This document shows, piece by piece, positions 3,736 through 63,134 of a stretch of DNA of 64,000 bases (its first letter is position 1; every line of letters starts with the position of its first letter). The notes beneath the pieces were generated by a model, which was not told the DNA's origin, did no database searches, and was given only the letters and a program-made list of their open reading frames with translations. The stretch is from Pristionchus mayeri (lineage: Eukaryota; Nematoda; Chromadorea; Rhabditida; Neodiplogasteridae): positions 43,387,216-43,451,215 of the forward strand of contig BTRK01000005.1 in assembly GCA_036245805.1 (NCBI GenBank). The letters run 5' to 3'. A program made the translations under genes and the position numbers.

Positions 3736-4459
3736 ATGGTGAAGATTCTTCTGACTCTGATGTTATGTGGTATCGCGATGTCGTCTTGTGAGAAGGTTAC
3801 TGTATGCACCATTTTACAAGCTGACGAGGTTTTTTTAATATTTTGTGATGAAAATTTGGAATTAGCCGCTGCGGCGCTCTGCATGAGTTGTGCTACGCGA
3901 ATTGATAGTAAATTCGGATAACTTTCGTGTGTTGAGCTGGAGCTTTGCTAGAAATGGCACAACGCCGGCTGAGAACTATGATTTCATGCTGCATTTCATA
4001 TGTCAAAGGCGGTCAAATAACATTGCATTTTTATTCCACGCAGTTTCTCGATCGATCGAGTCTCGAGAGAGTATCTAACATGAAGAAAATTGTTTTTGAA
4101 GAAAAAACTTTTGACGACTCCATCTTCCGAAAGGGGCTTCGGAGAGGAGTCAGAACAGATTCTGTGTGCTATATTTTACACTGATATTCTCTCTCTGTCT
4201 TGTGACTACCATTCGGATCTGATGGAGGGAGAGGCGGAGGTGGTGGCCCTCCCAGTGAGAATTCGTTCTGAGCTGTTACTTTAGTATCGCTGTTGAAAAA
4301 AAGAAAACAATAGAAAAGTGGTCTGAAACAAAAATTTCTCCAATGCGCCTACCTCAGGAAATCGGCAATGACGACATTGACGACGTCGTCGCAGCTGCCC
4401 TTTGGCATCCTTTTGTGTACGCAGTAATGATTACGAAACTGCTTATCGAGTCGACTTGA
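3736..4459 (+). CDS. small secreted protein, family member 1 (exons 3736-3801, 4159?-4254, 4358-4459)
   Basis: Exon 1 encodes a signal-peptide-like start (MVKILLTLMLCGIAMSSC) and ends at a GT donor at the same point as its paralogue at 33119-33184. A later exon encodes CDYHSDLMEGEAEVVALP before a gtgag donor; its acceptor is uncertain (the CAG before 4159 keeps phase). The last exon follows ctacctcag and encodes an acidic stretch (EIGNDDIDDVV) running to TGA at 4457-4459. An equivalent of paralogue exon 2 (TMTCDYW) is not found. All assigned exons are in phase 0. The likely product is a secreted peptide of about 85-90 residues. Function is unknown; the gene may be decaying. Confidence 0.45.
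3829..3893 (+). repeat. introner-like ~65 bp repeat in intron 1 of family member 1
   Basis: The stretch contains aatttggaattagccgctgc followed by ggcgctctgcatgagttg, a diverged copy of the repeat found at tRNase Z splice sites (core TGCGGCGTTCTGCAAGAG). The corresponding intron of the paralogue at 33185-33235 is only 51 nt and lacks it, so it is a paralogue-specific insertion or loss. Confidence 0.55.
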
Positions 4460-36671: not shown

Positions 36672-36689
36672 TAGTTAATAATAATAACC

Positions 36690-38475: not shown

Positions 38476-41400
38476 TCACCATCTGCGACCTTTCAGAAGA
38501 GATCTGTTGTTCTCAGTCGATCTGGGTCCCCTCTGGAAGCCCTTTCTCGCTTCCATTCTCTTCCTTTCCTCCTCGCCAATGGCAATTTCGCCAGCATAAA
38601 CGTGCCTGAAAAATCAATGACCGTCACCAAAATAAAGAAACTGTGAAAACAATGACAATGGGCGCTAGGTCGGATGAAAACTATTACGTCATTCCGCCTT
38701 TTACATATTAAAGGCGTCATGACGTCATAGTTCTCATCCGACCTAGTACATGACAATGTCCGAGATGGAAGTCATTTGAAGTACGAACTCTTACAGAACG
38801 ACGCAACGACTAATTCAGAATTTTGTGTACAAAATGATACGATCATCCAAATTACGAATTCTACTCACCGATAGATGGGATTCATGAGAGGAACGAGATC
38901 GAGTCGATCGAATCCCACTCGCAGACCGTCCATTGCCACTCCGATCTTCTTCTCGTCGAGATATTCAGGAAGAATAATAAATAGCTGCAATAATTAAGTA
39001 ATTACGTAAATAATTAAGCAATAATTAAGGATAAAGTGCAGTGGAGATGAAGCTATTGAGGTGCTCCAAAAGTTCTTGCACTTTTGTTGCGGACAAACTT
39101 AAACTCAAACGTAAAGATTGTTCATCCAAAAAGCCTATACTATTGAGCAACAATTTAGCACTATAGAGCAACAATTAAGTGCGAAAAAGGACTCTGGTGT
39201 GCCTCTCCAAGAAACGCCGAAGAGCCACTTGGGAGCCCTCTTTTTTTTGCAAATTACTTAGTTGGCCCCAACTTGATTCCAACTCTTGGTAGTCGTTTCA
39301 GAGATATGAGAGAACGGCACTAGGTCGAATGAGAACAATGAAGTAATGCCGCAGTTGATATACCAAATTCGGGATGACGTCTTAGTTCTCATCCGACCTA
39401 GTGCCTGAGAGAGCAAGCTTAGGCGACCTACTTGGAGAGCCACACCAGAGCACTAACAGTGCATACCTTATTAGGGTTTCAATTTTCAAGAAATTTCAGG
39501 TAATTTTAGGATACGTTTCAGCGTGCGTTAGACAGCTTAATTTAGAGCGCCTGATACACATCCGAAAATTGCAAAAAATTAACTGAAAATTGACACCCTA
39601 GTGCATACTAGAGTTCTCTTATTGGAATCTTATTGGAATGAAATGCATCATTTCGATATATGTTTCACGTGCACTATATATGCTCTATATAGTGCGCGTG
39701 AAACATATATGAAAATGATGAATTTCATTCCAATAAGAGAACTCTAGTGCATACCTTAGGATACGGGGCTGCGAAGTGGGTGAGGATGCAGTGCTTGGCA
39801 CGCATCTTCTCCGCGATCTCAACTGCTTGGCCCACAGTCGAGTGATGGTCGCCGTTAGCCCGTTGCTGCAATGAAGAATCACTTTTTTACCTTATTTTGC
39901 CTTATTTGAACCTTACTTGAATCTTATTCCCAACGACCAGCAAAAATTAACTGAAAATTGACACCCTAGTGCATACTAGAGTTCTCTTATTGGAATCTTA
40001 TTGGAATGAAATACATAATTTCGATATATGTTTCACATACTCTTCTTAAGATTTCTCTTATTGGAAAATATTTGGTGCCTTTTTCGAAATGTTTTATACT
40101 AATTCCAGCTCGGGTTTTCTACCGGCTTGGACCTTAGTGGTCGGTTACTGTCAAACTCAGAAAAGTAGGGTCACGTTAATGGAACTTTATCTGAGTAGAC
40201 AGGGCAAGTGAAGCGATGAATGAGAAATCGCCGGGGTTCTTATACCCACGCGCCACTAGAACAGCGGGGAGAGCGGAGAGAACAGACGGTGAGGGAAAGG
40301 GAGAGCGTGGGGAGATAGATGATATCTGAGATATCGGGACGGGAATAGCGAGCCAGAGTGATTGATCTTTGACCTACTGACTACAAGAGTATTATACTCT
40401 TGACATGTTTCATGTGCGCATAAGAAGCAAACGATCATCTGCTATATACCTGAAACCTACTAGAAAAAGCGATTACAATTTTCCTATAACAACCCGGCCC
40501 GCAATCACGTGATCTGATGTGGTCTAAAACATCTAATCAACCATTTTTGTGCGTAATTCAAGGGGTTACCTCATAGAAAGTTGCCTCGTGAATAAGAAGA
40601 TCGGCATCCATTCCGTGCTCGACGAGCAACTCGCACGGACCCGTGTCGCCAGAGAAGACAATCTGTATTAGGTTCCCCCAATTGTGCTTTTTGGCCCAGT
40701 TGGGCTTTTACTTTCAAGTATGTTTCATGAGCGCTTTATGTATGTTATACATAACGCACATGAAACATACTAGAAAGTAGAAGCCCAACTGTGCCAAAAA
40801 GCCCAATTGGGGGAACCCTAATCTGTATCATTATTATCGTCATTTATCCATTAATCAAGGACTGGGCCTGGCGGAATATCGAAGAAGTGCCCTTCGACCA
40901 TACCTTCTTCCCGTCGGTTGTCAAGAACACGTAAGCTTTGGCCATTCTCGTGTGATCTACCTAAAAAGAATTAGAGTACATTATGCATCGGCACAAGGTC
41001 GGATGAGAACTATGACGTCATGCTGCCTTTGAAATACGACAGGCGGCGTGACGTCACAGTTTCTCATCCAGCCTAGAGCCTAATGCATCTGCTAGAGTGT
41101 CCAATTTTCACAAAATTTTGCACGTACTTCTAGGTTTCAAGTGCGCTACATAGTTCCTGCGAGTACATTATGCATCGGCACAAGGTCGGATGAGAACTAT
41201 GACGTCATGCCGCCTTTGAAATACGACAGGCGGCGTGACGTCACAGTTTCTCATCCAGCCTAGAGCCTAATGTATCTGCTAGAGTGTCCAATTTTCACAA
41301 AATTTTGCACGTACTTCTAGGTTTCAAGTGCGCTACATAGTTCCTGCGTGTAACGGCATTTTCGTGACCTGCAACCTACCCGAAAAGTTGAAATTTGAAA

Positions 41401-44400
41401 GCCTATGTATCTATGTTTGTATCCCCTCCCCTCCCCAAATTCACGCACATTCTGCACTTGCTGAAGCACCTTTGTGGTGAAAAATAAAATAAATAAATAA
41501 ATAATAATTAAATAAATAGCGTACTTGTACAGCCATGACTCGGTCCAGTCCCCACTTCTCCCTGTCGTACGATCTAATCTTATTCGTAACTTGTACTGTC
41601 GGTGGTGCAGGAATCCACTGAAAATGAGAGCAATTCAACCACGTCAATAGGTCGGATGAGAACTATGATGTTATCATGCCGATTTTGATATATCAAAGAC
41701 AGCATGACGTCATAATTCTCATCAGACCTAGTGCCATCTCTTAAACGATATATAACAGTTAGCACTAGAGCGGATAATCACATGTCGGATGCTAACCAAC
41801 AATAGTAGCTTCTCACTGTATCCAAACTATTGTTTTCTTCTGGACACATTTTGCGCCATAATTTTAAATTTTTTAAAAATTTTTTGTTAAAGTTACCCAA
41901 CAAGGACGAAATTGACCCATTATTTTTTGTCATCCATCGAATAGCCGATGGTTGAATTAGTATAGAATGAATATACAAAAATGCTAAAAATCAATAATAG
42001 CCTCAAGGGAAAGCCGGAAATGATCCGCGCTCTCTCACTTTTGCATACTCTCTCGTACACGCGACGGGATCAAGGTGAGATCAGGGTTTCGTCTTTGTTG
42101 GGTAACTTTAAGAACATAATATCAAATCCTACATAATGGGTACTATTTTCGGTTATCATCCGACGGTGATCATCTGGCACAGTACCAACCTTTTTCACAT
42201 TGTCGGGGGATTTCCTGAACGGGTAGTTTGGATAATTTCCACTGTCGGCATCGATGCGTCGAGGCAAGTCAATCACCTGAGAGATGTTATAGCATTATTA
42301 GAGTTAGCCTGTTGGAACTTTTTTTGCTATAGTTTTGGCTATGTTTCGCCGGCTCCATATAGCTGATGCGTGTATATGTAGTGTATCTGAAACTTGCCCG
42401 ATCACACAATTTTCATATAAGAGAACTCTAAGCATTATTAAAACGTTCCGAGAGCATCAATTGACCACCTAGGCAAGATATGCACACAAGATACCATAAA
42501 ATTGTGCACGCGTTAAGCAATATTAGGGGAAAATATTACGGTGATTAACAATAGTAGTCATAGGGTTTACGGGACTTTCCTAATTAAGTACTTGCCCACT
42601 GACTACGCGCACTTGTCGATTACGCTAAATTTGGTAAGCAAAGCCTAAGCAGTCTAAGACGATCACTAAGCAACTTAAGCCTGAGCCTATGTACGTGAAG
42701 TCAGACTCTAAGCAGTATTATAATAAGGGAATAGTGTGAGGCGTAACAAGGGGTGGAGTCTACTGCGGCCTAAACCTAAGCAGGGTAAATCTCACCATGA
42801 CATATCTTTCCACATCTTCGAAAACTAAGTAAAAAACTAAAACGCTAACAAGTACCGTAAATCTCGAAAAATTAGATTAGCAATCCACTCTTGTCTACCC
42901 ATATGGCTTCAAGAAGAATACAAGCAGTAAATCCTCACCATGACATATCTTTCCAAATCTTCGAAGCACTCAGCATACACTTGCAATGAGCGCAGCATCA
43001 CCTTCTCGCTGCATACTAACACGACAGGAACGTAGGCAATTCCTGAAAGGAATATAGTACACTTACTGTCTTACAGTACCCTCATGATGGTCGCGAACTG
43101 ATTCTATTTTCAAAAAGGGAATATACAACACCCAATCGGTACCCAGCGGGTCGTCCTTTAAGGAATACACTCAGTGGCCGAAAAGTAGGTCAACAATTAC
43201 ATAACGTGAAATTACATAAATAATGCTATAACATATCTCGGGGGTCCCTACCAAAACGTCCCCTCTCTCCCCCTGGCAGTACCCGCCTCTCTAATCAAAT
43301 TTTGAAGTTTTAATTACATAAATCAATTAATTTTGGTTAAAAAGCTTCGCTCTTTTTTGATTGTTAAAGAGCGTGAGCTGTTCTATCTTTTGTATGTTAA
43401 TGCCTAAGAGCTCAGACTCACATGAACTTCGCTATACTATCAAATGCGATAATTATTACATTTGATAGCAAAGTTCATGTGAGTCTGAGCTCTTAGGCAT
43501 CAACATACAAAAGATAGAACAGCTCACGATCATTAACAATCAAAAAAGAGCGAAGCTTTTTAACCAAAATTAATTGAGTTATGTAATTAAAACTTCAAAA
43601 TTTGATTAGAGAGGCGGGTACTGCCAGGGGGAGAGAGGGGACGTTTTGGTAGGGACCCATATCTCGGCACTAAGTCGGATGAGAACTATGACGTCATACC
43701 GCCTTTCGAATATCAAAGGCGGCATCACGCCATAGTTCTCATCCGACCTAGTGCCCCATCGTCCTTCTTCCAAATGTTAGGGCATGTTTCCGTAGTCTTT
43801 TTTATGGTTGAAGTAGTGGGTCTCGGATTTCGAAACTCAGCATCAATTCCCGCCCACTTATGAACATCGCATACCTTTCTTCTCGAATGCTTCTCTCCTC
43901 TTCTCAATCACCGTTATCAGTCCTTGCACATGATCCTGATGGCGTAGTTTGTAATTATCTCTCGAATTTCACACTAAGCCCCGACCCTTTTTTCGATCTA
44001 ATAGCTGATATATGCTGAACCAGCTGAGAGACTGTGTGTGTACGATGAAGGGAGATTCGGAACTCTTACAGAACGCCGCAACGACTAATTCAGAATTTTG
44101 CGTACAAAAAATTACGATCACCCGAATTAGGAAGCCTACCTGATGCTCGTGAGTGACGAAGATTGCGTGCAGATTCAGCAACAGCTGAAAATAAAATATA
44201 ATAAATAATATAGTTAAAAAAATCCCCCCCACCACCACCTGCAATCATTAATTATATTTTTCCATGATTTCTTCGCGCCTTGGGCGTAGATCAATTATTA
44301 TTATTATTATTAAAAAAATTCTTTCTGGAAACAGCTGTGTTTAATGTTCGCGAAAGTTTCAAACTTGCATTCAAAACTGTATTAATACCCCTTTACCTCC

Positions 44401-47400
44401 TCGGAAGCGTCATCATCGAATATCACTCGCAACTGCCCGTATGTCGATTCTCCAGCGTCGATGAGAAATGCAGAGGAAGACGAAGTCTCGAGCAGGTATC
44501 CGGACACCTGCGAAGTGGAATTTTATTTATTCCAGGGGTGCTACTAGGTCGGACAAGAACCCACCAGATGAAAACCAAAAAACTACGCCCTCTCCAGCAC
44601 TTTCACATGAGGTTCATACACTGTCAAAATGTTTTATGCGAAAAAAAATCTGCGGAAGCGTATAATTTTAGGTTCTCATCCCTCCTAGTGCCAATCGAAA
44701 CTCGCGAATACAACCAAAAACATTACGTTTCGATATCTGGTGGCTTGACCCGAGGAGGTGCCGAGAAATGTGACACGGGGAAAGGACGATTCTGACGTAG
44801 TTGAGGCTCCCAAAGCAGCAGCTGCTGCAAAGGACTGCATTGACGTCTACGCACAAACTCCAGGCAAACAGGCCATATTCACACTATAGACAGCGGCACT
44901 AGGCCGGCTGATCATCCTCGGATGTAAAAATGTGGCCTTTTCTAGTATTTTCAAGACTCCTTTCCAGTATGGGAACATCCTGGGCAAGTCCTACATAAAG
45001 GCACTATATTTGGTTATCATCATAGCTGTCCACACCGCCGGTAAACCAATGGCCCCCTACCGCCAGGACGTCGCCAGTGCTGGACAGCTATGGTTATCAT
45101 CTACCCTAGTGCTACATTGACAATGCTTGATGTATTATTAGGTTGTAACATAAGTTTTGTCGCATTTCGGAGGTTCACAATATTTCCATGAAGGATACTT
45201 CTCAAACATTATCAATGCCTGACCTCCTAGTATATGTTTGGGGTGTTCATGCACATTCAAACCATAGGGTAGAGCTGAACTGCGCACGCTGGCTATGCGA
45301 AAAATATTAATATGAACTGATTTAAATTTGGTGCAGATTTTATTAATTCGTTTGATCGGGTGCTAGTTCGCAGAGATGAATAATGAACCAAACTTCTACA
45401 GCATGGTGATATACCCCGTCAATGCTCTTTCAAAATATACGCCAGATATGGTGCTATGTTGAGCGGAACCAAAGATATACTTCACTGAGTGTAAGGTTAG
45501 CCGCTGATTCGTAGCCAACTTGACCAACTCTTCTGAATCCAGAATTGCAACAACAGTGACTAACATAAGTGCGTTCAATTACCACTCATGGAGGTATAAT
45601 TTATCATTAAACAAGTGAGAGAAAGAACACTCCACTTGTGGGAAATTTGAATTTTTATTAATTCAATTCGCGCACAATTTTACCAAAATTTGCAAGTTTA
45701 GGTGTTTCGAATTAAAGATTGTCATTCAAAAGCTATTTATTTCCAAACTTATCCCAAGTAGATACTAGCAAGGGAAGGGTTTATGGTTCGGATGGACACA
45801 ACAAATCAGATATTGAACATGTGTGCGAGGTAGGAATATGAACAAAGTGCCGATTTCAGTAGTTTAATTTACATACCATCGTTCTGAATGGAGCCACTTA
45901 TCTCAACAGAACCCAATCTACCCCAAACTTTGTCTGCACACTGACCACTTTGGGTGAACTATATTCCACCACTATTTGGATCTGGATATCTACTGAGAAG
46001 AAAATTCGGCTTGCGAAAATTTTCGCGACCGTCACCAACCATCCACATTATACAAACTCGTCTACATTTCTAGAACGATTTTCGTTTGTCATTATCCGTG
46101 AGTGGTTCAAAATTATGCACATATGTAGTACTTTACGCAAATCACACAAAATCGGCATAATTTATCCTTTTCAAGAAGAGCTGATGCGTGAAAATGATTT
46201 CTAATCCTTATCTCAGTACAACTTTGTCTGACTAATGTGCCTCCTCAACTGCCTTGACAGGACTGAAGTAAAGCGCGTAAGAAAGAGTACGAAGGCCCTC
46301 ACTGATGATGAATAACGAAATTGAGATTAAATTAATTCGAAGAATTTCTGAGGTTAAAATGCATAAGAGATTGGACGCGACAAAACTTATGTTACAACCT
46401 GATACAACTAAACTATCAAAGCATTAATTCGAAACTAGTCTCACCTTCTTTGGCAGCCGCAATCTCTTTACTGGCACTAATTCTCCACGTATGTCCCAAT
46501 CGATCTCCAAATGTATCCTCCCTCAGATCGAGTGCGAGCGGCTCTTCTCGATAAACATCATCCTATATCACATCAATAGTGGAGCGCAAATTGCATAACC
46601 GCTCAAAAAAGGCAGCTTAAACTATGGTTTAAACTGTAGGGCAGACTGTTATCACTTCCTGTTGATTACTCCTATTTGTAATTTCGCTATCTCCGTGTTA
46701 CTGTATTATATTTGCATCCTCGTTGACGCATCGTATTTCATGTAAGATTATCAGCATCGTTTAATGTCTCAATAATTACCTATTCGAATAATGCATGACA
46801 AATTAATTGAATTATTACCACTGCACTATTTGAATCTTGTACTTCCTTTACACCATTCACCTTGAAGTTTCGCATGTTCCATTGCTGAAGAGGCGCTGCC
46901 CGCAGCCAGAGATCCTTCTTCACTCCGAGGTCCGCGCTCTGGATTTAGAATTCGAGAACCACATTCAAACTCTTGCCATTCCTTGTTAGTCGTCGCGAGC
47001 GGTCCCTCTCCCTTTTCTCTCTGATTTGGATTGGTTTCTCCTAATACCCCTCGCTTCCGCCTTCGACTCATCATCAAAAGAGAATCCCCATCGAAGCCGG
47101 AGTGGTCACCGTGTGATGGGTATGACCTACTAAGATGTTTGGTCCTTCAGAATCTAGACTCGATCATCTCGTTGAAAGATTGATCATCGAGTCTGGTGGA
47201 TTCGAGCAGAGAAGATTCTAGAACACGCAAGGCTTCGTTTACGACCTATAGTGAGATTCTATCTATGCAATACAATCCAACATCCTCTCGCAAGCACACC
47301 GCAAATGAACATCTTCAAATGAGAAGAACGACCTTTTCTGACCCCACATCTTGATCTGCGCCCAGAAAGCGATAACAGATAAATATTGTATTGTATTCAA

Positions 47401-50400
47401 AATCTTGCAGAACGCCGCAAAAGACTAATTTCGACTTTTCTACGCAAAAAGTGTCAGTTACCTGGCTTACGATTCCTCTCCATCCGCGCGGTCGTAGCTC
47501 ATCGAACAGCGCCGGTTGCAGCTCGTGTAGCAATCTATGGTGCCGCTTATGCATTACTAGTGAAGACAGCGACAAACGATCAGCTGCTTACCTGGCGTTT
47601 TTGTGCGGGGACTCGAGGTGCGGTACGACTGGTCCAGCGCCGTTCGCGACGATGTGTCTGCAACGAAGTTCGATAAATTCTTATTTTGTAATCAAAATTC
47701 GAAATTAGTCATTGCGGCGTTCTGCAAGAGTTCGATAAACGGGCCCATTCGTCCATTCACCTCCCACTCTCTCTCGACCGCTAGTGACAGAGTAAATGAA
47801 GAGACTAAGGACACCATATCAAACTCTAGCCTTCAGTAAGGGCGACGCAGTAGCATAGTAGGATTGTACGCAATTTTAAAAAATCACTGAGAAAGTCGGG
47901 TCCTCGAATTTTTACAGCACAAACCTAGACAAATACTCGAGCTTTTGTGGTGATTATTAACACCATATTAGGCCGTAACATACGTGCACTGCGGGCCCAT
48001 TTCCCGTGCCCATCGTTCGTATTCCTTCGACTTGAGCACTTTCTCTGGGGTGAGATGGACGACAAAGTCGACGGCTTCAGAGGAATTCCTCCCAGACAAT
48101 GACTGGAATTAGGGGAAATTACAAAGATGAAGATTACAAGAGAACAACAAATACCCTGATGAAGTCGTTCTTGTAGAGGGAGCGCGCGAATCCCTCGTCA
48201 GCCGCGTCCACAATCAGCAGTCGCTTCTTCTCAGGTCTCTGATCGTATCTTTTTGTACACAAAATTCTGAGTTAGTCGTTGCGTCGTTCTGTAAGAGTTC
48301 TATTCGCTCTTCAGGTACCTCTTTGGTCAACTGATCAATCTTATTTGGCGCTGACTTCATCTCAACGTAGTACGCGACGTCTGTGGCGTTCTGCAAATAC
48401 AACTTTACTGATTTTAAGCAATTGAATCAGCCTGTTAAAACAGTAAGCTTTATTCAGAGCAAGAGCAGTGGCCGAAAGGACAGGCCACAAAAATTGTAAA
48501 AAGTGGGCAGGTTTCAACAATTTTAATATGAAAGCGTAAAAAATTTGTACGTTTTCACAATTCTATCAAAACTTTACGAAACCATTGGTACGTTTTCTAT
48601 TTTTGCACTGGTCGAATTCCAAAAACCCGGGTACGTTATGTCATTTTGAACCTACTTTTCGACAACTGAGCAAGAGCACGTGATATCGAGAGCATCAGAC
48701 GATTGGACCAACCTTTCTAGTCGTATGCTCGAGTGTTTTCCGGCCCGCTAGCAGGGGCACGTAGTGAATCTTCAAGCCAGCGTCTTCGTATGAGGTATGC
48801 GTCGCCAGCGATCGCTCCTCGACCTGCAATCACTATACTATAATATTAAAATAATATACTTTAATATTAAACTATTACAATATATACACGACATCTACAT
48901 ATAAAACGTGTTCCGTTTGTTCGGATTGCGATATATATATTCCGATTGCACCATAGCCACGCCGAAGGCGGGGGCAATATGGCTAGTATACTACATTATA
49001 TTTCACAGAAAATTTGACAAACTGTTAAAATATCGCAGAATTGTGTGTACAAAAAGATAAGATCACCCGAATTAAGAACTCTACCATTGTGGGATACTTG
49101 GCGGGGCGGAAATCCAAGTCCTCGAAGGGGCGAACGACTTCGAGGAATTGCTTGATGTTAGGTGCGCCATGCAGACGAGTGGCCAGCGAGTTGTTTCCCT
49201 GAGAACAATTATTAATTAGTCATTAATTAATCGTTAATTAGGCACTTCTTAAGGTTTCTGGCCACCCCCCTTAATTTACTCAACTCATTATAGGGTTTCC
49301 TTCCTGATTTTCGGCCGCTCAGCACCTCAATGATGGGCGGGGATGGGAAATGAGAGGGGGGGGGTGATCAGAAACCGAAGTAGTGCAAATAATTATTAAC
49401 TAATTAATAAGCATTAATCATTAAAATACCCAAGCTGGACGAGTGTACAAAATGGAATAAGATGGACGATTCGGAATTACCTTTAGCAGAATTGACGAAA
49501 TTCCGGAAATGTTCTCCCATACGGCTGAAATGAAACATTTATTCGATTGCATGTTTTTCATTTAAGCAAATATGGAAATTGCACAAAACCAAAAAATCCC
49601 TACACAGTGTGTACATCATGATATTCTCACCTCTCGTTATAAAAACGTCACGTATTTGGTTGAGCTTGATTCCGTAAGCATGAAGGAATCTAAAATAGAC
49701 GCTGCGCACTCGAAAACGAGGGTACTTTTTTGGATAATTAGTCCACCTCCAATCCCCACCCCCCCCCCAATCATTTCGCACAATCTCCCCATCCCAAAGG
49801 TGCTATGAGTCCGAAAATCAGGGAGAGATACTTAGAAATGAGTGTGGTGGAGGAGAGAGGGAAGGGGGGGAGGGTATCATGTGGCCTTTCACACATCAAA
49901 GGCGGAATGACGTCATAGTTCATATCCGATCTGTCATATTACCTGATGGTTCCCTCTGGCGCGTTGAAGAGATACGTTTGGCGTGGTGTTCGTATAGCGA
50001 TGCACGGCGCCATGTGCGTCGTTCCGTTCGAGAGTATCTGACGGTTTGGATGACTCATAGGTCATGATATGAGAGGAATCGCGAGAGAATCGACCATGGC
50101 GCGGCGGTAGGAATCAAAGGTGTTCAATCCGGCAACAGTTAAAGTGTAAGGTACTTCAAGTGACGCTCTTTCAAACTGTGTCGTCAGAATTTTGATATTG
50201 ATCGTCATCTTCGAGATTCAGAAGGCCAAACATGGTACTATAACTTTTCGATAGTCAAATCGCGCTCACTTAAATGATTATAAGTCAGTTCAAAATTGAG
50301 ATAGAAGGCCGTTCTTTGTTTCAAATGAAAGCAACCATCATGTTCAACAACTTTTATGTTGACGTCATCATTCCTGGACCTCACCCTGGTACAGGGCGGT

Positions 50401-53400
50401 CGGGTGCACCAAAACTTCGTAATTTTGGAAATCGGAAAAACTTTATGAGTTTTCATGCTTAAGTTGCAGTCCATATATGTGCCTCACTTTTCGCCAAAAA
50501 TGAAGGAAATCGGGGTATACACAAGAAAAAAGGGCTCACTTTCGTAAAACGACCTCAAAATGAGTTATCGGGAAGGGTACTTCCGTATCTTCAATTGCCC
50601 TCATTTAGGTTCAAAATCATCCAAAAACCTCCAAAACAACGTTTGAACTTCTTCCCCCAATAGTTATACCATTTACATTAGTCAAAATTACGGTATGACT
50701 TCAAATTCAAAAATTGATATTTGCTCTGCAGCGTGCTTCAACGAAAAGATAGAGACTAACTTTCAACAGATGAAATGTTTAGCTCATCGTGCTCTACATT
50801 TCTAGCCATAAACCAGGTCTCTATGCCGATTTTTACCTGGGTTACAGTTTTGAGCCTTTCTTTGTATTCCTCAGCCGAAAGATCCTCTTTTCAGGAGCCC
50901 TTTTTCTTTGAGCTGTTTCGAGGAATGTATTTACATTATTTGAAACCCATTTAGCCCAGTGAGAGCCATCCCTCAAGTTAAAGGGGTTCGAAATATCAAC
51001 TTTTGAATTTGAGGTCATACCGTAATTTTGACTAATGTAAATGGTATAACTATTGGGGGAAGAAGTTCAAACGTTGTTTTGGAGGTTTTTGGATGATTTT
51101 GAACCTAAATGAGGGCAATTGAAGATACGGAAGTACCCTTCCCGATAACTCATTTTGAGGTCGTTTTACGAAAGTGAGCCCTTTTTTCTTGTCTATACCC
51201 GGATTTCCTTCATTTTTGGCGAAAAGTGAGGCACATATATGGATTGCAACTTAAGCATGAAAACTCAGAAAGTTTTTCCGATTTCCAAAATTACGAAAGT
51301 TTTGGTGCACCCGACAGCCCTGTACCAGGGTGAGGTCCAGGAATGATGACGTCAACATAAAAGTTGTTGCACATGATGGTAGCTTTCATTTGAAACAAAG
51401 AACGGCCTTCTATCTCAATTTTGAACTGACTTATAATCATTTAAGTGAGCGCGATTTGACTATCGAAAAGTTATAGTACCATGTTTGGCCTTCTGAATCT
51501 CGAAGATGACGATGAATATCAAAATTCTGACGACGCAGTTTGAAAGAGCGTCACTTGAAGTACCTTAGACTTTAACTGTTGCCGGATTGAACACCTTTGA
51601 TTCCTACCGCCGCTGACCTCCCTTAAATGGTCGATTCTCTCGCGATTCGCCTCATATAATAATTATAGTTTTTTTACCACATTATCCCTCTCCTAATATA
51701 TGCCTATTTCAAAAAAAATCGTTTTCTAAAATCACGCAATCTAATTTTGCAAGTTTATACATTGTACAGGGCCAGCCTCTCTTTGATTCTTACACGCTCA
51801 GATAAATCGCACCTGGATGCTGACACTATCGGGAATGCTAGCCAATTCTTTCTCGTTTGATGCAGCTGCCTTAAATATCAACGTAAGTGATCTTTATCGA
51901 TCGATAAATTCCCAATGCTCTTTGATGTAACAATTTGAGAAGATGGCCAAGCCAGCTTGGAACCGTGCGTACCACATTATTCCGTTGTGCGGCGTAATTC
52001 GAATTGCGAGTGCTCATCGTATTGTTAGCCAACGAATTCTCGTTTGAAGCAGCAGCCTGAATGCACGGCGTTTTCACACCACTCAAACTATTTTTTGAAC
52101 ATTAGTGATCTTTATCGATCGAGTTTTTGTATCCATTACAATAGGAAGTTGCTCGTCTATTTATTATAAACATCTTTCAATTTCGCTATTAATTACTGTC
52201 ATGACCGCTTGGTGGGTAGTCCAAACATATTGTGTCTGGCAAAGTGCTCGATGAGATGTCTTATGACAAATTCGATACATTCCCAACCATAGGTGGTTCG
52301 GGGGTTGAAGCTGAAAATCGAAAACCGGGGGTGTTTAGGGTCAAAAGGAGAGGGGGTGATCGTAAATGATCGTTTTTGTGACAAAATTTAACAAAAACCG
52401 GGGGTGTCCAATCCGAAAACCGGAGGTGTTTCACAGCTGGCTTCGATGGTGCCCACCTATGTTCCCAACACTCTATCAAGTACAAATTTGGGCACTTCTT
52501 GGATAATTGTCCCACCCCCTCCCCCCTTCCTCCTCTACCTCACTCAGTTCTAGATAGCACTCCCTGATTTTCGGTCGCATAACCCATTTGTGATGTGGAG
52601 AGGATGAGAAATGATAGGGGAGGAATGGGGGGTGTATCCTAGAAATGTCCAAATTTGAAATCATGGCAATGCCTGCTTGAAACAGTGCGTACCACATTAT
52701 TCCGTTTTGCGGCGTAAGTCGTCGGTGAATTGGGAGTGCGCATCGAGGTAGACTGCTCGCGAAATCTGCAATATCCTATCAGTTGGCATTATCATATCAG
52801 TCGTATCAGTTTGTACACACAATTTTGAATTAGTCGTTGCGGCGTTCTGCAAGAGAATGTAGCCACCGAACGGCGGTTAGCATGATCTTCGACGGAGCAT
52901 TTCCCTCGCTCCCTCCAGTCCTTATACTCCTACGGCACTAGGCAGAAATGAAAAAGCATGGTCATCCTATCGTTAGAAACCGTGGCCTACTGGTCTAAGG
53001 CGCTGTAATTGACATACCTATGGCAGGGTGGGTTCGAGTCCCGGCCTCTGCAGTGACTTTTGCCAAGCTCGTACAATTTTTGCCTACTGTTGGGTACTTC
53101 GCCCGAAGCTTGGCAAAGGTGACTGTAGAGGTTGGGATTCGAACACCATACCTTAGGATCCACCATAAGATTAATCGTATGTTACGTTTGACCATTGGTC
53201 TTTCATCTGTGGCACTAGGCCCGATGATGAAAACTATGACGTCATAGTCATCCGACTTAGTGCCGCACACACTCTGATCGATTAGCGAACGTGTATAACG
53301 ACGAGATTCAAAAGATTGTCCAATACTAACTCTCTAACGCTCTCGTTCACAATACATCATTACGCGCTCACAATTTGTTCCAACACATTTCATAGCCTTA

Positions 53401-53947: not shown

Positions 53948-54654
53948 CTGAGACAGAAAATATCAAAAATGAATAAAATATCTAATATTATTGTTATTAT
54001 GAAAATACGACAGACTCGATTAAAACGAGTATTTCAATTAAGAACTACAATTAGATGCGCTTTATTTCGCTCTTTGCAATGAATATCACCGACAGCAACA
54101 AATACCTGATACTATCAATTTGTAACCAAAGTCGGATTGAAGTAGGCTATCACTGGTGGAAGAGAATTACCGAACATGGAATAACTAACTTCTCTATAGC
54201 AAATAACAAGAAAGGACAACGCCTAGACATTATTTGAAACAATTGAAATCTATGAGAACTCGGTCATTATGAGCTTTGAGTTAGGACATGATATCCATGA
54301 AGAAAACTTGGGAACAAAAACAATAACAATTTAACAGAAACAAAACTCGCTGTCTTCGATTCAACGACTCGTAGACGAAAGAGATACAACATTGCAAATT
54401 AACTCAAAATTTCGAACAAAGGCCGTACATCAATGCTATGCCTATTTAAGTTGACACAACGGTTGACTAATCCATAACAACACGTTAGGCAGCATAACAA
54501 TCTATGAAGAAAACACTCATTCATCAAGCTTTGACTGATTTCACGTTATGCTCACCATCCGCGACCTCTCAGAAGAACATTAGCGATCCCAACGACCCGA
54601 AGAACAGTACTCAATTGCTACAGTATCCTGCTACAGTGCCCTACATTGCAATGC
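53948..54654. other. intergenic region between the two tRNase Z copies
   Basis: About 700 bp of A/T-rich DNA without recognisable exons. It separates the stop of copy 2 from the spliced-leader-like acceptor of copy 1, so both genes run in the same direction. Cotranscription is possible but there is no direct evidence. Confidence 0.4.
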
Positions 54655-57600
54655 CTAGTTCTCTTCAGTCCTCATTATCTTTTCATTTTTGTAGTTCTTC
54701 TCGAATTTCCACTTATCGATTTCATCAAGTTCGTCAGAATAAACGTGCCTGGAAAATAAATGACTATTATAAATATGCAAAAAGTAGGTACAATGTCTTT
54801 CTCTAAGAGGAGAAAGTCGCTAATATATATCCTATAAAAGGGCTGTCACGTTGCAGTTTCACTCACTCCAGAAAATACTGTCATTCCACTAAATTCTGTT
54901 TTCTAGCACTTCGACCGGTTCACTCACCGATAGATGGGATTCATGAGAGGAACGAGACTGAGTCGATCGAATCCCACTCGCAGGCCGTCCATTGCCACTC
55001 CGATCTTCTTCTCGTCGAGATATCCAGGGAGAGGCGGTACCTAAAAATTAGGGTACTATACCGGTTTATGAGTTATTGTAGTAATTGGGTACTGTAGAAG
55101 TATACTATAGTAATTGGGTACTCTAGTAGGTTTCTGTTGCCTTTGGGTGCCTTTGGGCACATTCTGGGTTCTCAAGTGTGTGGCGAGCGGTTGAGTGCGA
55201 TTTCGTCTCTCCGTCTCCGGTTCCGCCCGCCCGGATTCCCTCTCCCAGACGCGTTGGCACGCGGGAGTTGTACGCCGCCACGATGGGTCGCCACTTCTAC
55301 ATCGGCACCATCAACGCCAGGACGCTCGGCCCAAGGGAGAAGCAGTCGGAGATGGAACTCGCCCTCGACAAGATCAAGTGGGACGTGGTTGCAGTGCAGG
55401 AAGCCAGGATTGTGGGTTGTGCCTCGTTCAATCTTACATCCTCAGGCACTGTAGTCTACCACTCGGGCGGGCCTACTGCTTCCCATGGCGTGGCATGTTT
55501 GCTTCGACCGCAACTCGCGCGCGGAGCTGTGTTCAATGGCCTCTCCCCTCGTTTGGCCACTCTGCTCCTTCCCGACCTACGGCTCTTCCTGGTCTGCGCT
55601 TACGCCCCTACGTCTTCCTACGATGACGACGCGTATGAACACTTCCTAGACCAGGTTGAAACCGCCCTGCGGAGTGCCCCAAAAGGCCATATGCCAGTTC
55701 TGGTTGGTGACTTCAATTGTCGAGTGGCGAGGGAACCTGGCAATGAAAGATTTGTCGGTAACTTTGCCTCTCCCACACCGAACTCACGCGGACGCTGCTT
55801 CACTGAGCTCTGCGTGAGGAACAGACTGCGCATCCTGAACACGTTCCCCAAGAGACGGCACGGTCGAATCTGGACCTGGCGATCCCCAAACGGCTCCGCA
55901 TGCCACCAAATTGACTACGTTGCAGCGCCCGCCACAGCGAGAGTAGTCAACTGTGGAGTCGTTGGTCGGTTTGAGTTTGACTCCGACCATCGCCTTGTTC
56001 GGCCTCTCCCTCCCTGGCAAGGCGAGGCAGAAAAGATGCAGGGAGCGGCTAGATTTCGATCGAACCGCTTTTACTGTCAACGCAAACCTTCTCGCGTCAC
56101 TGCCCCTTGCCCGCCCCAGTTCTGCCGCCGACGCCTATACTACGGTAAAGGCTTTCACGGAGACCGCGGCAACGAACTGCTGGAGGAAGCGCCAATCCCC
56201 TTCTTGGATCTCGAGTGGAACGCGGAAGCTCCTAGCGATGCGCCATGAATTGCAATCCAACTCCCAACAAGCTGTCGCCTACTCAGCTGCCTGCAAAGCT
56301 GCCCGGACGAGTTTCGTCGATGACATCAGGAAGCGAAAGGAGGCGCAAGCACGGCAAGCAGCAACCATGGGAAGGAGCATCGTGAAGAGCATGCTGAGTC
56401 TGCAAACCTCAAAGAAGCGCCTTCTAGTTCCCGACCCTGTAACTGGTGCTCTCTCTCAAGCAGCTACCAAGACAGTGGTCCAGAGCTTCTTTGACGGTCT
56501 CTACACCCCTGCAGTTCCGTGTCCACTCCCAGTCCCTCCTCAGCCTCTGGATCCCCTTCCTCCCTTCCTACCCGATGAGGTCAGCAAAGCGATGTATCAA
56601 CGCAAGTGTGGTCACTCACCCGGTTCGGATGGCATTCTCCCTGATATGCTATACCACTCTCGAAACCACCTTGCTCCCGTTGTCGCTGATCTACTCAACT
56701 ATCTGGTAGATGGAGAGGCTGTTCCAAGCGACCTGACCGAAGCAATTGTCACTCTTCTGCACAAGAAAGGAGACCCTACCAACATTGGGAACTTCCGTCC
56801 CATCTCCCTCCTCACCGTTTCCCTGAAGACAATGACCAAAGTCATTCTTCAGAGACTCGAAACTGTGCTTGAAGAAACAGAGTCCTCGACCCAAACCGGC
56901 TTCCGGCGCGGCTACAGTACTCTCGACAACCTGCATGCCATCAAGCAGGTCGCTGAACGAACCTCCGAGTACGGTATCCCAATCTACTTGGCGTTCGTCG
57001 ACTTCAAGAAGGCGTTCGACTGTGTGGAGTGGAATGCCTGCTGGCAAGCCCTCTTTTCGTTCGGAGCCCATCCCTCCATCGTCCACGTGTTGCGCCGTCT
57101 CTACGAGTCCTCCTCTACACTCATTCGAGTTAATGAGGAGCTCGTTTCCGTGACTGTGCGTCGAGGAGTCCGCCAAGGGGATACCCTCTCCCCTCGTCTC
57201 TTCAACGCAGTGCTACGATCAGCCATGGACAACATTGACTGGGAGTCGGATGGAATTAGAATCGACGGAAGGAACCTTTGCCACTTGGAGTATGCCGATG
57301 ACGTGGCTCTCGTTGCCAAATCTCGACCCGAGCTGGAACGAATGCTGAAGAAGCTGATGGACGCGTGTAGCATGCTGAAGAAGCTGATGGACGCGTGTTG
57401 GTCTCGAAGTGAATGCAAGCAAGACCAACCTCCTCACCTCCTGCACCTCTACCCGCAATCCAATAATCATCGACAATCTGCGATTCGAATTCGTCGATAG
57501 CGCCACCTATCTCGGAGGGAGAATAGCTCTTCCCTTGGATCATTCCGACGAAATAGAACACCGGATTCGATTAGGGTGGCTGGCCTGGAGTAAGCTCTCG

Positions 57601-60600
57601 CACCTCCTATCTTCTCGAATTCTGTCCATCAAGATCAGGAGGAGAGTCTTCGAGAGCTGCATCACGGCTACAGTTCTCTATGGGTGTGAAGTATGGGCTC
57701 TGAGATCTAGCGAGAAGGAGAGGCTGAGAGTCACCCAGAGGAAGATGGAAAGAAAGATGCTTAGAGTCACGCTGAGGGACAGATGGAGGAATGACCGCGT
57801 GAGAGGGATTACCAAGCTGAGAGACTGGAATGAGGAAGGATTGAAACGGAAAGCGCTCAAGATCAGAAGAATGGGAGTGGAACAGTGGAGCCGTGCGACA
57901 ACTGTCTGGACTCCATTCAATAGGACTCGTCCCCCCGGAAAGCCTCGCGCGCGATGGAGAGACGACCTATCCCGAGCTATTGGCAGCCATTGGTGGAGTG
58001 CAACTTATGAAGACTACCGACCTATCATCTTCTGAGCGTTTCCGCCTGATAAGATAAATTGGTTGATTGATTGATTGGGTACTGTATTAGGTTAGTGTAG
58101 TCATTGGGTATTGTAGTAGGTTACTGTAATCATTGAATACTGTGTTGTGGTCTTTCGCACCTGGAACAGTACCCAATGACTACAGTAACCAGAACCCAGC
58201 ATTGCAGAAGTCACCAGCAAAAACTACGCCCATTATGTCTCAACTGTGCAATCTAACAACCTCCCAATATGCATCAAGGCAAAACGATGCCGGTAACCTA
58301 AGAATAGAACAATCTTGTGTGAGCGTCTTTCAGAGATCACTGCTTTTTGCCTACTAAGAACCGCACTAGTGATGGCGCGCGCTCTCCTCGTTTCACACGC
58401 TCTCTCACCGGTCAGACAGAGCGAGAGAGTGTGTGAAACGAGGAGAGAGCGCGCCGATTTGGCATCACTAAACCGCACCTTCCATGACTCGCCAAACCGT
58501 AACAGGCCGCCTACCGTAACAGTCTACCTCATGTCTACTGCAACAGGATACAGTAGTCATTGGGTACTGTAATAAGCTACTGTAGCCTGCGTACCTGACG
58601 AAATCTGGCGGAGAAGTGGGTGAGGATGCAGTGCTTGGCTCGCATTTTCTCAGCGATCTCAACTGCTTGCCCCATAGTCGAGTGCGCCTTGCGGAAGGCT
58701 TGTTCCTGCAAAATTCGGACTATTTGTGTAGGAAATTTGCAATTAGTAATTTGCGGCGCTATGCATGAGTTCGAAATTCGTTTCATTTTGTATAGGAAAT
58801 TCGTAATTAGTAGTTTGCGGCGCCCTGCAAGAGTTGTGTGACCTGACTTTATTGTTCAAGTTATTATTCTTGCGCGATATGGATCATTTAAATGAACTTT
58901 TAGCGTGCGTAGATATACTAATACGAATACGAATTGACACGAAGTGTCTGCACTTCGTATAAAGCGATTTACGATCAGAAGAGTGTCCTCTACAAAACCC
59001 AAGTATGGGCGACTGAGCATTCCCCGGAGCGCCCCATTAATCCATCCCTTACCTCAAATCCATCCTGTAAAGTTGCCTCGTGAATAAGTAGATCCGCATC
59101 CATTCCGTGCTCGACGAGCAACTCGCACGGTTTAGTATCACCAGAGAAGACAATCTTAAACAAAACAAATGAGGCACTTCTTCGGTTTCTGGCCACCCCC
59201 CCCCCTTTCTCATCCCCACTCATCATTGATAGGCCGAAAATCAGGGCGCAATACCTAGAAATGAGTGGGCTAGATGAGGGAGGGGGGGGGGGGTGGCCAG
59301 AAACCGAAGAAGTGCCACAAATAATTCTCTCCCCTTCGAGATTTTTATTTTCTTTATCGTACACCACATAGGTGCTTCATCAGATGCAGAAATGTGCGAG
59401 AAGGGGAAGGGGTAGAGAGAATAGAGAAGACAAGACATGAATGGTAGGGGGAGAAGGGGGGGGATATTTGAACTCATGCTGATCCACAAGCATAACAATA
59501 AACTGGGCATTGGACACTTCTTTTATTAATGACCACCCCCCCCCCCCCCGTACTCCCCTAACCCACTCATTTCCAGGTTTGTAGATCCAAAATTACATAA
59601 CGTGCCCGGGTTTTGGCCAGTACAAAAGAAGAAAACGTTTTTTGAAGCAATTTTTCTTAAAATTGAAAAAAAAGTACCCATTTTCAACGATTTTATATTA
59701 AATTTTAGAAACATGTCCACTTTTACAATTTGTGTGCCCTTTCGACCACTGGTATCGCATACCTTCTTTCCGTCGGTCGTTAAGAACACAAAGCCGTTGG
59801 AAAATCGAATGTGATCTACCTAAAAGGCAGTCGCATACATTATGAATCTACGCTTGCAACGTACTGCAACAGACTTGACTCCTTCCAGTCCCCACTTCTT
59901 CTTATCGTAGATTCCGCTTGCAATCTTTGGCACAATTTCCATTGTCGTTGGCGGGCCTCTAGGCCTCTTCCCATCGTCGATTCGGGATTTCTTGCGCGGG
60001 GATGGACGACCATCGCTGGCTTGGTGTGCGCGTGTTGTTACCAGATTAACCACCTGAACTATATGCAAAAAAAAGAAATATATGCAATTTTTTTGTTGAA
60101 AATCATCGATAAAGTTGTACACCAGTTGTGCAATATAAGAACACAAAGATCAACCATACGAGTCCCAGGATTTACGCCGAGGACATTACATTCCTGCGCA
60201 AAAGTATCGCGCATCTCACCTTGACATATCTTTCCAGGTCTTCGAAGCAGCCAGAATACGATTGAAGTGTCCTTATCGCGTTCCGATTGCACACGACAAC
60301 GAGAGGAATGTAGGCAAGTCCTGTGAAAACAGTAGTGGACGACAATTCCATACAGAACGCCGCAACGACCTATTGGGAATTTTGTGTATGAAATTTTCAT
60401 TTAGAATATTTGTTTGCCATCCCTAGTATACGAGAGAAGTGTTGTTCTTATTGAGTGCTTATGACACACGACAACTAGAGGAACGTAGGCAAGCCCTGCA
60501 AAGTAGCGCATCAGTGGTCGAAAAGTAGGTCCAAAATGGCCTAACGTGCCCGGTTTTTTGGAGTCCAGGCCAGTGCAAGCAGCAAACGTACCGTTTTTTA

Positions 60601-62995
60601 GTAATTTTTTGATTAAGATTTAAAAACATACCCATTTTCAACCATTTCATATTAAAATTTTAGAAACGTGCTCACTTTTTATAATTTTTGTGACCTACTC
60701 TTTCGACCACTGTAATGCATACATGGGCAGGCCAATCAATCCATCAATTTATCAGATCAGGCATTATGCTCAGACGAGGATGTGCCTATATTCTTCATAG
60801 GTTGCGCTTGTGATCAAGGTGGCGTACAAATCCCGCTATATCTTCACAGGTGTTAGGAAACTTGATCATTGGCCGGTATCTCAAGCAAGCGATTGGTGAA
60901 ATCCCTCAGTACTTGGCCTCAAAGTAGCCCAGAGCGGTCATTCAGAAACAAATCATGCCTTCAATCCTAATCGAATGCCTCCAGGAGATAATTCCCATAC
61001 ACGGTGCCCACCACTGAAGTACTGAAGTAGGTACGTTTTGCCTAAAAAAATTCCAACCCCACAAAAAAGGTCGGGTACGCTAGTTCATTTTGGACCTACT
61101 TTTTGACCCCTGCACCTTGCCCACAAGGTTAACTTAAAATATCACCTACCTTTCTTCTCGAATGCTTCTCTCCTCTTCTCAATCACCGCTAGCAGTCCTG
61201 TCACGTGATCCTTAAGTTAAAATTCGAAATTCAGGTGTTGGTCAGATTGGTCTCTCCAATTCCCAGACTCTCTCCTCATTCGACCGGTCGATATGATGTA
61301 GAATAAAGGAGTCAGAACTCTTACATAACGAATCAACGACTGCGCTAGGTCGAATGATTAGTATTTCATAAAACCGCCTTTGATATATAAAATTCTATGT
61401 ACAAAAAGCGAAGATTACCCGAATTACAAACTCTACCTCATGGGCGTGAGTGATGAAGATCGCGTGCAGGTTCACCAGCACCTGAAAATAATATATTAAT
61501 GTTAATATAAAACACAAAATGGTCGGTCATAACTAAGTCGAACATGTTTTTTCCTTTTTTTGAAAAAAAAAGTAAATAGGCGTTTCCTCCGCCCCCCCCC
61601 CCCCCCCCCCGCCCACTGATCAGTACTACTGGTTCCAGCGGAATCTGGGACACAATTTGTTTCTGTCGCAAAGTGGTCTCTTTCTTCGACATTTTTTTTG
61701 TACAGCGATCCGTGATATTCCACAATATTTCTCGTCGCAGTACACTCTGGGAACATATACTACAAGATGGTACAAATCTTGGCTATCATCGGGAACGCTG
61801 ATGACCTAGTGCCAGCGTACCTCCTCGCAAACGTCATCATCGAGTATCACTCGCAACTGCCCGTATGTCGATTCTCCAGCGTCGATAAGAAATGCAGAGG
61901 AAGGAGAAGTCTCGAGTAGATATCCCGACACCTGCACAGTGGACTTCGAAATATGGATCGTCGCCTATTTCGTTTAGGAAATTCGAAATAGGCCCACAAC
62001 AATCGTATTTTGACAAGGGATTAACGTTCCATCGATAAGGACATGGAAGAAGCAAATTCTAAGAAGTTTCGCTTCTTTCAAATTTGCGAGGGAAGGGCTG
62101 AGCCTAGTACAGATGTGGGAAAGTGATTACGTTTCTAAAGCTCGCGGGCCTGGCCGAAGAAGTTCCGAGAAAAGTGACACGGGGAAAGGAAGAGTCAGAC
62201 GGAGTGGAGGCGCCCAGAGCTGCTGCAGCTGCAAAAGGTAAAGCTATTTCCGAATTAACATGGGAATGGTCGGAAGTCACATATTCCAATCCCCTTCTGC
62301 TTCTCAGAATAACATCCTCCATGGTAGTTTACGAATCACGAAATAAAATCTCACTAAATGTTTCTAGAATTTTTTATATTTGATATTAAGCATTTTGAAA
62401 GGATCTACATTAGAGCTATACTCTGGATATTATACCCCTAATGTAGTAGCTCCTTTCAAAATGCTTAAGATCAAATACAAAAAATTCCAGAAGCATTTAA
62501 GAAAGTCTGATATCCATATATTCAACATCTCTACCAACGCTTCCATTCAACGTTAATCTCACCTTCTTTGGCAGCCAAAATCGCTCCTCTAGCATCCTTC
62601 CTCCACGTTTGATCTCTGTTAGAATCAAACCCCCTCAGATTGAAAAAGATCCGCTCTTCAGCCTAAATTGGAGTTAAATGCACGCGAAAATCTCTTCCCT
62701 CGTCTTGCTCACCGTAGGCACTTTTCGCATATTCCACCGTTGAAGCGGCGCAGCCCGCAGCCAAATGTCCTCGTTCACACCGAGATAGGCATCCTGGATT
62801 TAGAGTTCGAGAAACAGTAGTTCTAGAATAAATGAGAAGTTCAAACTCTTGCAGAACGCCGCAACGACTAATTGCGATTTTTCTATACAAAAAGTGTCGG
62901 TGACCCGAATTGCGAAGTCTACCTGGCTGACGATTCCTCTCCATCCGCGTGGTCGAAGCTCATCGAACAACGCTGGTTGCAGCTCGTGCAGCATT
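54655..62995 (-). CDS. tRNase Z (ELAC2-like) copy 2: catalytic half, 444 codons in the window
   Basis: Exons, 5' to 3': 62923-62995 (ATG 62994), 62713-62793, 62563-62662, 62131-62228, 61821-61931, 61437-61481, 61150-61210, 60220-60320, 59865-60053, 59763-59819, 59053-59154, 58595-58705, 54928-55040, 54655-54748. The joined frame is open with no stop. It corresponds exon for exon to copy 1 from exon 47462-47534 onward, except that one linker intron is absent (59865-60053 is a single exon). Motifs FLGT, H166-A-H-E-D-H171, H289, S-G-D311-T, H330-E-A-T and H347-S-T are all present. Residues 241-255 of the linker ([16 protein letters not shown]) resemble a bipartite nuclear signal. Two acceptors read AAG instead of CAG (before 61210 and 59154). 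The N-terminal half is not in the window; it may be lost or lie beyond 64000. The final exon stops early relative to copy 1. Confidence 0.8.
55133..58077 (+). mobile_element. RTE-type non-LTR retrotransposon in a tRNase Z copy 2 intron
   Basis: About 2.9 kb, opposite in orientation to the host gene, ending in ttgattgattgattg, the short tandem tail typical of RTE elements. It sits in a minisatellite-like stretch of gggtactgtagta(g)gtt words (55050-55130, 58078-58200 and 58555-58580), apparently the target. Confidence 0.75.
55178..58035 (+). pseudogene. RTE endonuclease-reverse transcriptase, frameshifted
   Basis: The first frame has an APE-type endonuclease ([32 protein letters not shown]). 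A frame change near 56000 leads to the [58 protein letters not shown] and [11 protein letters not shown]. At 57345-57400 a 30-bp unit is duplicated (LKKLMDAC twice) and the frame shifts again. The C-terminal part ([29 protein letters not shown]) is in the third frame. Dead copy. Confidence 0.8.
58368..58469. repeat. palindromic MITE (102 bp)
   Basis: agtgatggcgcgcgctctcc...cacgctctctc and inverse gagagagtgtgtgaaacgag...gcgcgccgatttggcatcact around accggtcagacagagc. In the intron between exons 58595-58705 and 54928-55040. Confidence 0.65.
58721..58830 (-). repeat. two tandem introner-like repeats next to a splice acceptor
   Basis: Two units (tgcggcgctatgcatgagtt and tgcggcgccctgcaagagtt on the plus strand) in reverse orientation relative to the gene fill the 3' end of the intron and run into the acceptor ccgaattttgcag of exon 58595-58705. 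The equivalent intron of copy 1 (39866-40569) has none. Confidence 0.65.
59168..59321. repeat. GGCACTTCTT...CCCCCC MITE copy 2
   Basis: Ends ggcacttcttcggtttctgg and inverse ccagaaaccgaagaagtgcc, each followed by a C or G run of 10 or more. The interior gccgaaaatcaggg matches the other copies. In the intron upstream of exon 59053-59154. Confidence 0.7.
60427..60495 (-). pseudogene. partial duplicate of tRNase Z copy 2 exon 60220-60320
   Basis: After a tactttgcag acceptor this codes [17 protein letters not shown] then LLSYT, matching [17 protein letters not shown] in the real exon, and then decays. It lies upstream in the same intron. Splicing into it would shift or stop the frame. Confidence 0.65.
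60508..60715. repeat. AGTGGTCGAAAAGTAGGTC-ended MITE
   Basis: agtggtcgaaaagtaggtcc at left and gacctactctttcgaccact at right. Copies in either orientation at about 48465-48672 and 59585-59755, and ends at 43175 and 61095. The shared inner words are aacgtgcccgg and aaacgtaccgtttt. Confidence 0.65.
62366..62495. repeat. small foldback in a tRNase Z copy 2 intron
   Basis: gaattttttatatttgatat, agcattttgaaaggatctac and their inverses flank a short centre (actctggatattatacccc). Between exons 62563-62662 and 62131-62228. Confidence 0.65.
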
Positions 62996-63033
62996 CTATA
63001 TTCAACATAGTTTTACCTGTCGCATCAGCTGAC

Positions 63034-63134
63034 ACTAGGTCGGATGGGAACTATGACGTCATGCCGCCCTTGTTATATCACAGGCGGCATGACGTAATAG
63101 TTCAACTATGATAGTTCTCATCCCCCCTAGTGCC
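63034..63134. repeat. palindromic CACTAGGTCGGATGA MITE with internal duplication
   Basis: acactaggtcggatgggaac, tatgacgtcatgccgcc, inverse arm gcggcatgacgtaatagttc, then an extra aactatgatagttctcatcc before the end. It lies 39 bp upstream of the first recognised exon of tRNase Z copy 2. Confidence 0.7.

Follow-up and report, generated by a model that had tools for sequence, protein, structure and literature searches.

A repeat that recurs at the splice sites of two tRNase Z genes of Pristionchus mayeri is most probably an introner, that is, a non-autonomous, MITE-like transposon, palindromic and bounded by terminal inverted repeats (TIRs), which duplicates a 6-bp target and would found introns on insertion into coding sequence. 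De novo intron gain is supported, on comparison of paralogous sequences, at three places: introns E1-E2 and E5-E6 of the tRNase Z genes and an intron of a second gene family (L022). What the DNA itself shows is a multicopy element with TIRs and target duplications, paralogues in which its sites are exactly empty, reading frames that stay open over the junctions, and a location at exon edges for most of the arms sampled. By this evidence the repeat is best described as a nematode introner family that is found too at the splice sites of existing introns.

A sequence-only reading of the window (the whole 64,000-nucleotide stretch analysed here) had reported a ~75-bp repeat. Because arms are found in head-to-head pairs (17 pairs, 2 of them from one duplicated locus), this repeat is recognised as one arm, about 95-115 bp long, of a palindromic TIR element of ~170-235 bp. 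The element has fixed termini, GTAGAGTTCG...CGAACTCTAC, and the outer consensus of the long arms starts GTAGAGTTCG(T/A)AATTCGGGT. Within the 290.8 Mb of genome searched, a 21-bp core of the arm is present in 300 copies at ≤1 mismatch and 1,069 at ≤3 mismatches, and the TIR end in 1,083 copies at ≤1 mismatch; reversed-sequence controls for both gave 0 in every case. The arm sample was taken from the first 100 places listed for the core at ≤1 mismatch, which is not a random draw; it comprises 87 loci, equal to 90 of the 100 places (2 others lie in the window and 8 were left out). A profile search of these 87 loci yielded 123 arms, 119 of them non-redundant, 71 with an outer end and 48 without a recognisable one. 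A second sample, again not a random draw, came from the first 100 TIR-end places listed (41 loci, 44 places). These exact-TIR copies mostly represent a shorter subfamily of ~113 bp. The right end was located in 22 of the 41 loci, with one element counted per locus and two pairs from duplicated loci included, and 20 of the 22 elements with both ends are 102-125 bp long. Their 6-bp target duplications match at all six positions in 14 and at five or more in 19, and the combination of TIRs with a target duplication of fixed length (14/22 at 6/6 bp) is that of a MITE.

The minus strand of the window carries two long-form tRNase Z genes, copy A (~38.6-49.2 kb) and copy B (~54.7-63.0 kb and beyond); a 110-residue stretch of copy B matches ELAC2 chains at 3.9e-26. 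Other copies are P4 (L095, L004), on the same contig (C5) as A and B; L002, which is apparently partial; and, more diverged than these, a copy on contig C4 (L094, L005), a stretch of which has a Pfam Lactamase_B_2 match of 2.3e-5, below the curated cut-off. At E<0.01 a profile of the repeat matches 14 places in the window, with a top E-value of 5.9e-26. The copies inside the window are:

3837..3896, plus strand: lone arm, outside the region of the sequence-only reading
38768..38864, minus strand: donor arm of intron E11-E12 of copy A (intron 38868-38606)
43936..44139, minus strand: intron E5-E6 of copy A, 204 bp, with the element at both ends
46939..47461, minus strand: intron E1-E2 of copy A, 523 bp
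47658..47735, minus strand: arm at the acceptor of intron 47983-47658
48239..48318, minus strand: 80-bp intron of copy A, mostly one arm (48239-48305), which ends at the acceptor
49032..49084, minus strand: truncated arm at the donor of intron 49084-48824
52799..52855, plus strand: arm ~35 nt from a putative acceptor of a putative gene
58706..58840, minus strand: two tandem arms at the acceptor of intron E9-E10 of copy B
60351..60397, minus strand: arm fragment ~28 nt upstream of the E7 acceptor of copy B, inner end facing the exon
61211..61436, minus strand: intron E5-E6 of copy B, 226 bp, same insertion as in A, right end degenerate
62794..62922, minus strand: intron E1-E2 of copy B, 129 bp, mostly element

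The six donors to which the repeat had been assigned all open with GT plus repeat on the minus strand (38868, 44139, 47461, 49084, 61436 and 62922), although at 49084 and 61436 only ~45-53 bp of the arm is kept. Reversed copies likewise end at acceptors as had been proposed, in introns 48318-48239 and 47983-47658 and, as two copies, near 58706. Two further assignments need correction. An arm does lie near exon 52693-52765, but it stops ~35 nt short of the putative acceptor, and the copy placed at 60340-60400 is indeed near an acceptor (arm 60351-60397), but turns its inner rather than its outer end toward it.

Other elements are also present. A second palindromic repeat of ~87 bp, GGCACTAGGTCGGATGAGAACTATGACGTCATGCCGCC..., has several copies in or near the tRNase Z genes (38661-38747, 39316-39402, 40990-41076, 41177-41263, 41646-41732, 43666-43752 and 63031-63117), one of them inside intron E11-E12 of copy A. 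The E10-E11 intron of copy B contains non-LTR retrotransposon-like frames at 55130-58035, with matches to endonuclease (PF03372, 1.2e-9) and reverse transcriptase (PF00078, 3.7e-31). At 35379-36673, a minus-strand frame of 346 residues that matches helix-turn-helix domains and, below cut-off, DDE_3 is bounded by a perfect 29-bp inverted repeat; we take it to be a Tc1/mariner-like element. A long inverted repeat with arms of ~660 bp, 96% identical, occupies 50064-51660, and an open frame with a DUF5641 match at 29338-30339 presumably represents the end of a retrotransposon polyprotein. Elsewhere in the genome, the 22-base SL1 leader, which nematodes use, has 465 exact copies and so marks the host as a nematode; the copies stand partly in regular tandem arrays, such as those at C3:4589721-4604493 (~1,135-bp spacing) and C6:45699373-45702635 (~650-bp spacing).

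Evidence for intron gain comes from the C4 copy of tRNase Z, which keeps 9 of the 11 introns compared from E1 to E12. The two that it is without, E1-E2 and E5-E6, are exactly those of which, in the C5 paralogues, both splice sites carry element sequence. The intronless junctions of C4 read ...AGCCAG|GAGGCG... (E1/E2) and ...CATCAG|GATCAT... (E5/E6). At the first of these sites A, B, and P4 have introns of 523, 129, and 104 bp, and at the second, introns of 204, 226, and 196 bp.

The repeats at 44139 and 61436, previously thought to be shared, do represent the same insertion, that of intron E5-E6 in A and B. In copy A this intron starts GTAGGCTTCCTAATTCGGG and ends ...CCATCAG, and the upstream exon likewise ends in the 6 bp CATCAG. 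The target is thus single in C4 and doubled in A; in P4 it is CATGAG/CATCAG, the intron finishing in GAATTACGAACTCTAC and then CATCAG. Copy B begins this intron with a well-kept TIR, GTAGAGTTTGTAATTCGG, and its right-hand target copy is not recognisable, so that no target duplication is left. Intron E5-E6 splits the HxHxDH motif, which we take to be the metal-binding motif of this enzyme family. The E5/E6 frames read HTHEDH when joined in P4 and HAHQDH in C4, and predicted splicing restores a sequence of the HAHQDH type. In this clearest of gains, the TIR appears to have become the donor and the 6-bp target duplication the acceptor AG, and predicted splicing gives back the empty site.

Intron E1-E2 is best preserved in copy B, where it starts with a well-kept TIR, GTAGACTTCGCAATTCGG, and ends CTCGAACTCTAAATCCAG. 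The TIR is degenerate in A and P4. Copy A has a degenerate arm at the donor and a TIR remnant plus ATCCAG at the acceptor, with other sequence between. A repeat common to 47461 and 62922 had been described; both do have it, but the TAATTCGGG part, kept at 62922, is gone from 47461. Translations across the E1/E2 junction are open and parallel in B, P4, and C4, and the target duplication is 5/6 at best. Like E5-E6, this gained intron finishes in a TIR remnant and a short target copy. Target duplications were also sought in the long elements; they are clear for few, and the search was not convincing. For this reason, claims of target duplication are limited here to E5-E6 of A and P4 and to the exact-TIR copies.

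The third gain lies outside tRNase Z. The intron of L022 is an element with both arms, and two paralogues (39% and 33% identity) are without it, a single open frame running through the site. Apparent gains from this one repeat family are thus seen twice in tRNase Z and once in L022, two separate gene families, and introns with arms occur besides in UGGT (L014) and in a lipase-like gene (L088). Each of the three gains has an empty site in a relative, in this case a paralogue in the same genome. Paralogue searches for L034 and L025 at E≤0.001 gave nothing beyond these loci themselves or a tandem duplicate.

Such gains suggest a simple mechanism. Insertion into coding sequence would duplicate a 6-bp target. 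Because the TIR begins GTAGAGTTCG, the first base of the element would open a 5' splice site, GTAGAG, on the coding strand in either orientation, and the right-hand 6-bp target copy, where it ends in AG, would become the 3' splice site. Splicing would then remove the element together with one target copy, bringing back the old reading frame. The gained introns would be spliced in this way in vivo, the element would be mobilised by a transposase supplied in trans, and the same ends may serve at the boundaries of pre-existing introns.

Not every copy fits this scheme. Six further element-bearing introns, five in tRNase Z genes and one in L088, occur element-free in a paralogue. The repeat after 38868 had been noted as missing after 54927, and this is correct: the intron, E11-E12, is the same in both paralogues, with an arm only in A. 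It is armless in B (54927-54749), L002, and L005, and at 38868 the element comes after GTGAGTA of the old donor. In the interval at 49084, the C4 paralogue has introns without the truncated arm. The acceptor arm of intron 47983-47658 is common to A, B (L036), and P4 (L095) and missing from the same intron of C4, and intron E9-E10 (58706) is also present in C4, armless. For the 48318 region, there is a paralogue intron without the element, and the exon structure of C4 differs there. Finally, both arms fill the L088 intron, and the paralogue L139 has an arm-free intron at the same place. Because these six introns appear to have been there already, we call the family an introner, and likewise the three gains that were tested, but do not extend the name to all copies. 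Ends of the family thus also lie exactly at, or a few bases from, the splice sites of older introns.

The introner interpretation first made from the window is thus partly supported. It appears to hold for the family as a whole and for no fewer than three introns, given the empty sites of E1-E2 and E5-E6 in C4 and of L022 in two paralogues, and the sampled outer ends at exon edges. For the remaining copies that were tested it is either wrong or undecided; where the repeat lies at 38868, 49084, 47658, 48239, or 58706, a paralogue also has the intron, repeat-free. Landing in old introns or at random positions, which the sequence-only reading had named as the contrary outcome, is also seen in part, the exact-TIR copies not being associated with exons.

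The position of the family relative to exons was assessed with a self-trained coding model, from whose training stretches within 150 bp of arms were masked. The median coding score at the outer flank of the 71 long arms is 2.7, compared with -4.0 at 43 exact-TIR flanks (p 8e-7), -5.0 at 3,000 random window positions (p 1e-18), and -5.0 at 265 positions 250-425 nt farther out at the same loci (p 4e-16; all by Mann-Whitney). Exact-TIR flanks and random positions show no difference in coding score (p 0.20). A first coding model, trained on only 277 codons, pointed in the same direction, with medians of 1.7 (long arms), -1.4 (exact-TIR flanks), and -2.4 (random). The long-arm score reaches background by ~90-120 nt, as expected of short exons. 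By a mixture estimate for the 119 arms at one threshold, the share not at an exon edge is 0.34 (95% 0.22-0.46), ranging from 0.20 to 0.56 across the thresholds tried; sampled arms thus lie at exon edges far above chance, about two thirds of them by this model-based estimate. The test on the 71 arms places ends at splice sites to the precision of an exon edge, exact coincidence having been checked only in joined examples.

Two other tests of splicing were set aside. AG directly precedes the TIR in only 9 of 64 aligned long arms and CT lies six bases out in 7 of 64, low counts that speak against the introner reading; this position was dropped as a test because most long-arm TIR ends are too diverged. 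Open joined frames alone were rejected as proof of splicing because wrong strands also yielded long open joins. Among the joined examples, L014 resembles UGGT: its exon pair, joined across an arm-bearing intron, matches that protein in Pfam at 8e-26 and in PDB at 1.2e-13, ungapped at the junction. The L088 peptide joined across the element is lysosomal-lipase-like, with a weak PDB match (0.0027) and no Pfam match, and an L046 exon is 17-beta-HSD-like, also weakly (PDB 0.002). When ten exon or joined-exon peptides were scanned against Pfam, UGGT was the single match above cut-off; carboxylesterase (0.0018) and metallo-beta-lactamase (best 2.3e-5) fell below curated cut-offs, one chance match scored 0.089, and six peptides had no match.

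Could the element be a MITE that creates no introns, landing in or at the edges of existing ones, with the absences in paralogues representing losses? Such copies might be tolerated because their ends and target duplication rebuild splice-site-like sequence. The six introns that are element-free in a paralogue agree with this, as do the position of the 38868 element behind the old donor GTGAGTA and the report that intron loss outpaces gain in nematodes (PMC9169325). However, C4 is without only two of 11 introns, precisely those with the element at both splice sites; intron E5-E6 of A has a copy of the target CATCAG on either side, whereas C4 has one; and two paralogues are without the L022 intron. 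This explanation is accordingly judged unlikely. Spread of the introns as RNA, by reverse splicing and reverse transcription, would account for the cases in which the whole intron is element, but the TIRs and 6-bp target duplications are signs of DNA transposition, and the arms are donor-side in 26 of 53 cases versus acceptor-side in 27 of 53 (by best-scoring frame, which is wrong for at least one, L014). We consider spread as RNA highly improbable.

For the ends at older introns, possible explanations are a preference for splice-like targets, survival of splice-adjacent copies, and repeated gain at proto-splice sites. A survival effect, in which insertion was broad and only the copies used in splicing stayed recognisable, may explain part of the splice association, though we rate this as rather doubtful. 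The sample was drawn by matches to the 21-bp core with ≤1 mismatch, and the younger-looking exact-TIR copies are not exon-associated, both of which favour such an effect. Yet the core is an internal part of the arm, set back from the splice sites by tens of bases; the median flank score for all 119 arms, including the 48 without an outer end, equals the 2.7 of the 71; and the empty-site evidence is unaffected. A tentative idea, to which we give no greater weight, is that the long-arm family prefers splice-site-like targets (CAG|G in exons, acceptors, and GTRAGTA donors), and so might both found introns and take over existing intron ends. If this were true, a transposon would be renewing intron boundaries in its host nematode.

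Palindromic MITEs are short elements with TIRs and target duplications that reach hundreds to thousands of copies. The present family resembles them in being short, in showing no coding capacity, in having TIRs and target duplications, and in its copy number. We know of no reason to expect exon-edge enrichment of ordinary MITEs. The exact-TIR copies (mostly ~113 bp) resemble ordinary MITEs in position, whereas the long arms differ by their enrichment at exon edges. A large survey of introners, later than the one considered here, reportedly exists.

Introners with TIRs and target duplications of 3-9 bp have been described across diverse eukaryotes (Gozashti et al. 2022, PMC9860276). According to the Fig. 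2C legend of that work the 5' splice site is carried by the element and the 3' site co-opted, and most introner families are said to leave mRNA length unchanged. Among animals and land plants, it reports introners in only two groups, copepods being the only animals named in the passages considered, and 'nematod' has 0 occurrences in its main text. The family described here, too, has numerous introns of similar sequence spread over unrelated genes, with TIRs and short target duplications, and here as there the element would provide one splice site and the target the other; it is unlike those introners in its nematode host, in the commonness of half-elements, and in ending also at the splice sites of existing introns. 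The literature searched (titles, abstract openings, and passages, mostly outside subscription journals) contained no nematode introner. An introner with TIRs and a target-derived splice site is an already known kind; the nematode host appears to be new to the literature searched.

It is an open question where the new introns of nematodes originate. When 104 nematode genomes were surveyed, 168 novel Caenorhabditis introns were detected, mostly with flanking exons free of indels, and no source sequence was identified for them (PMC9169325). With the present family the question becomes testable, since the source of its introns is clear, sites empty of them exist, and the rule proposed for their splicing is simple. 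Like the novel Caenorhabditis introns, it points to recent intron gain in a nematode; unlike them, it traces the gained introns to a repeat family.
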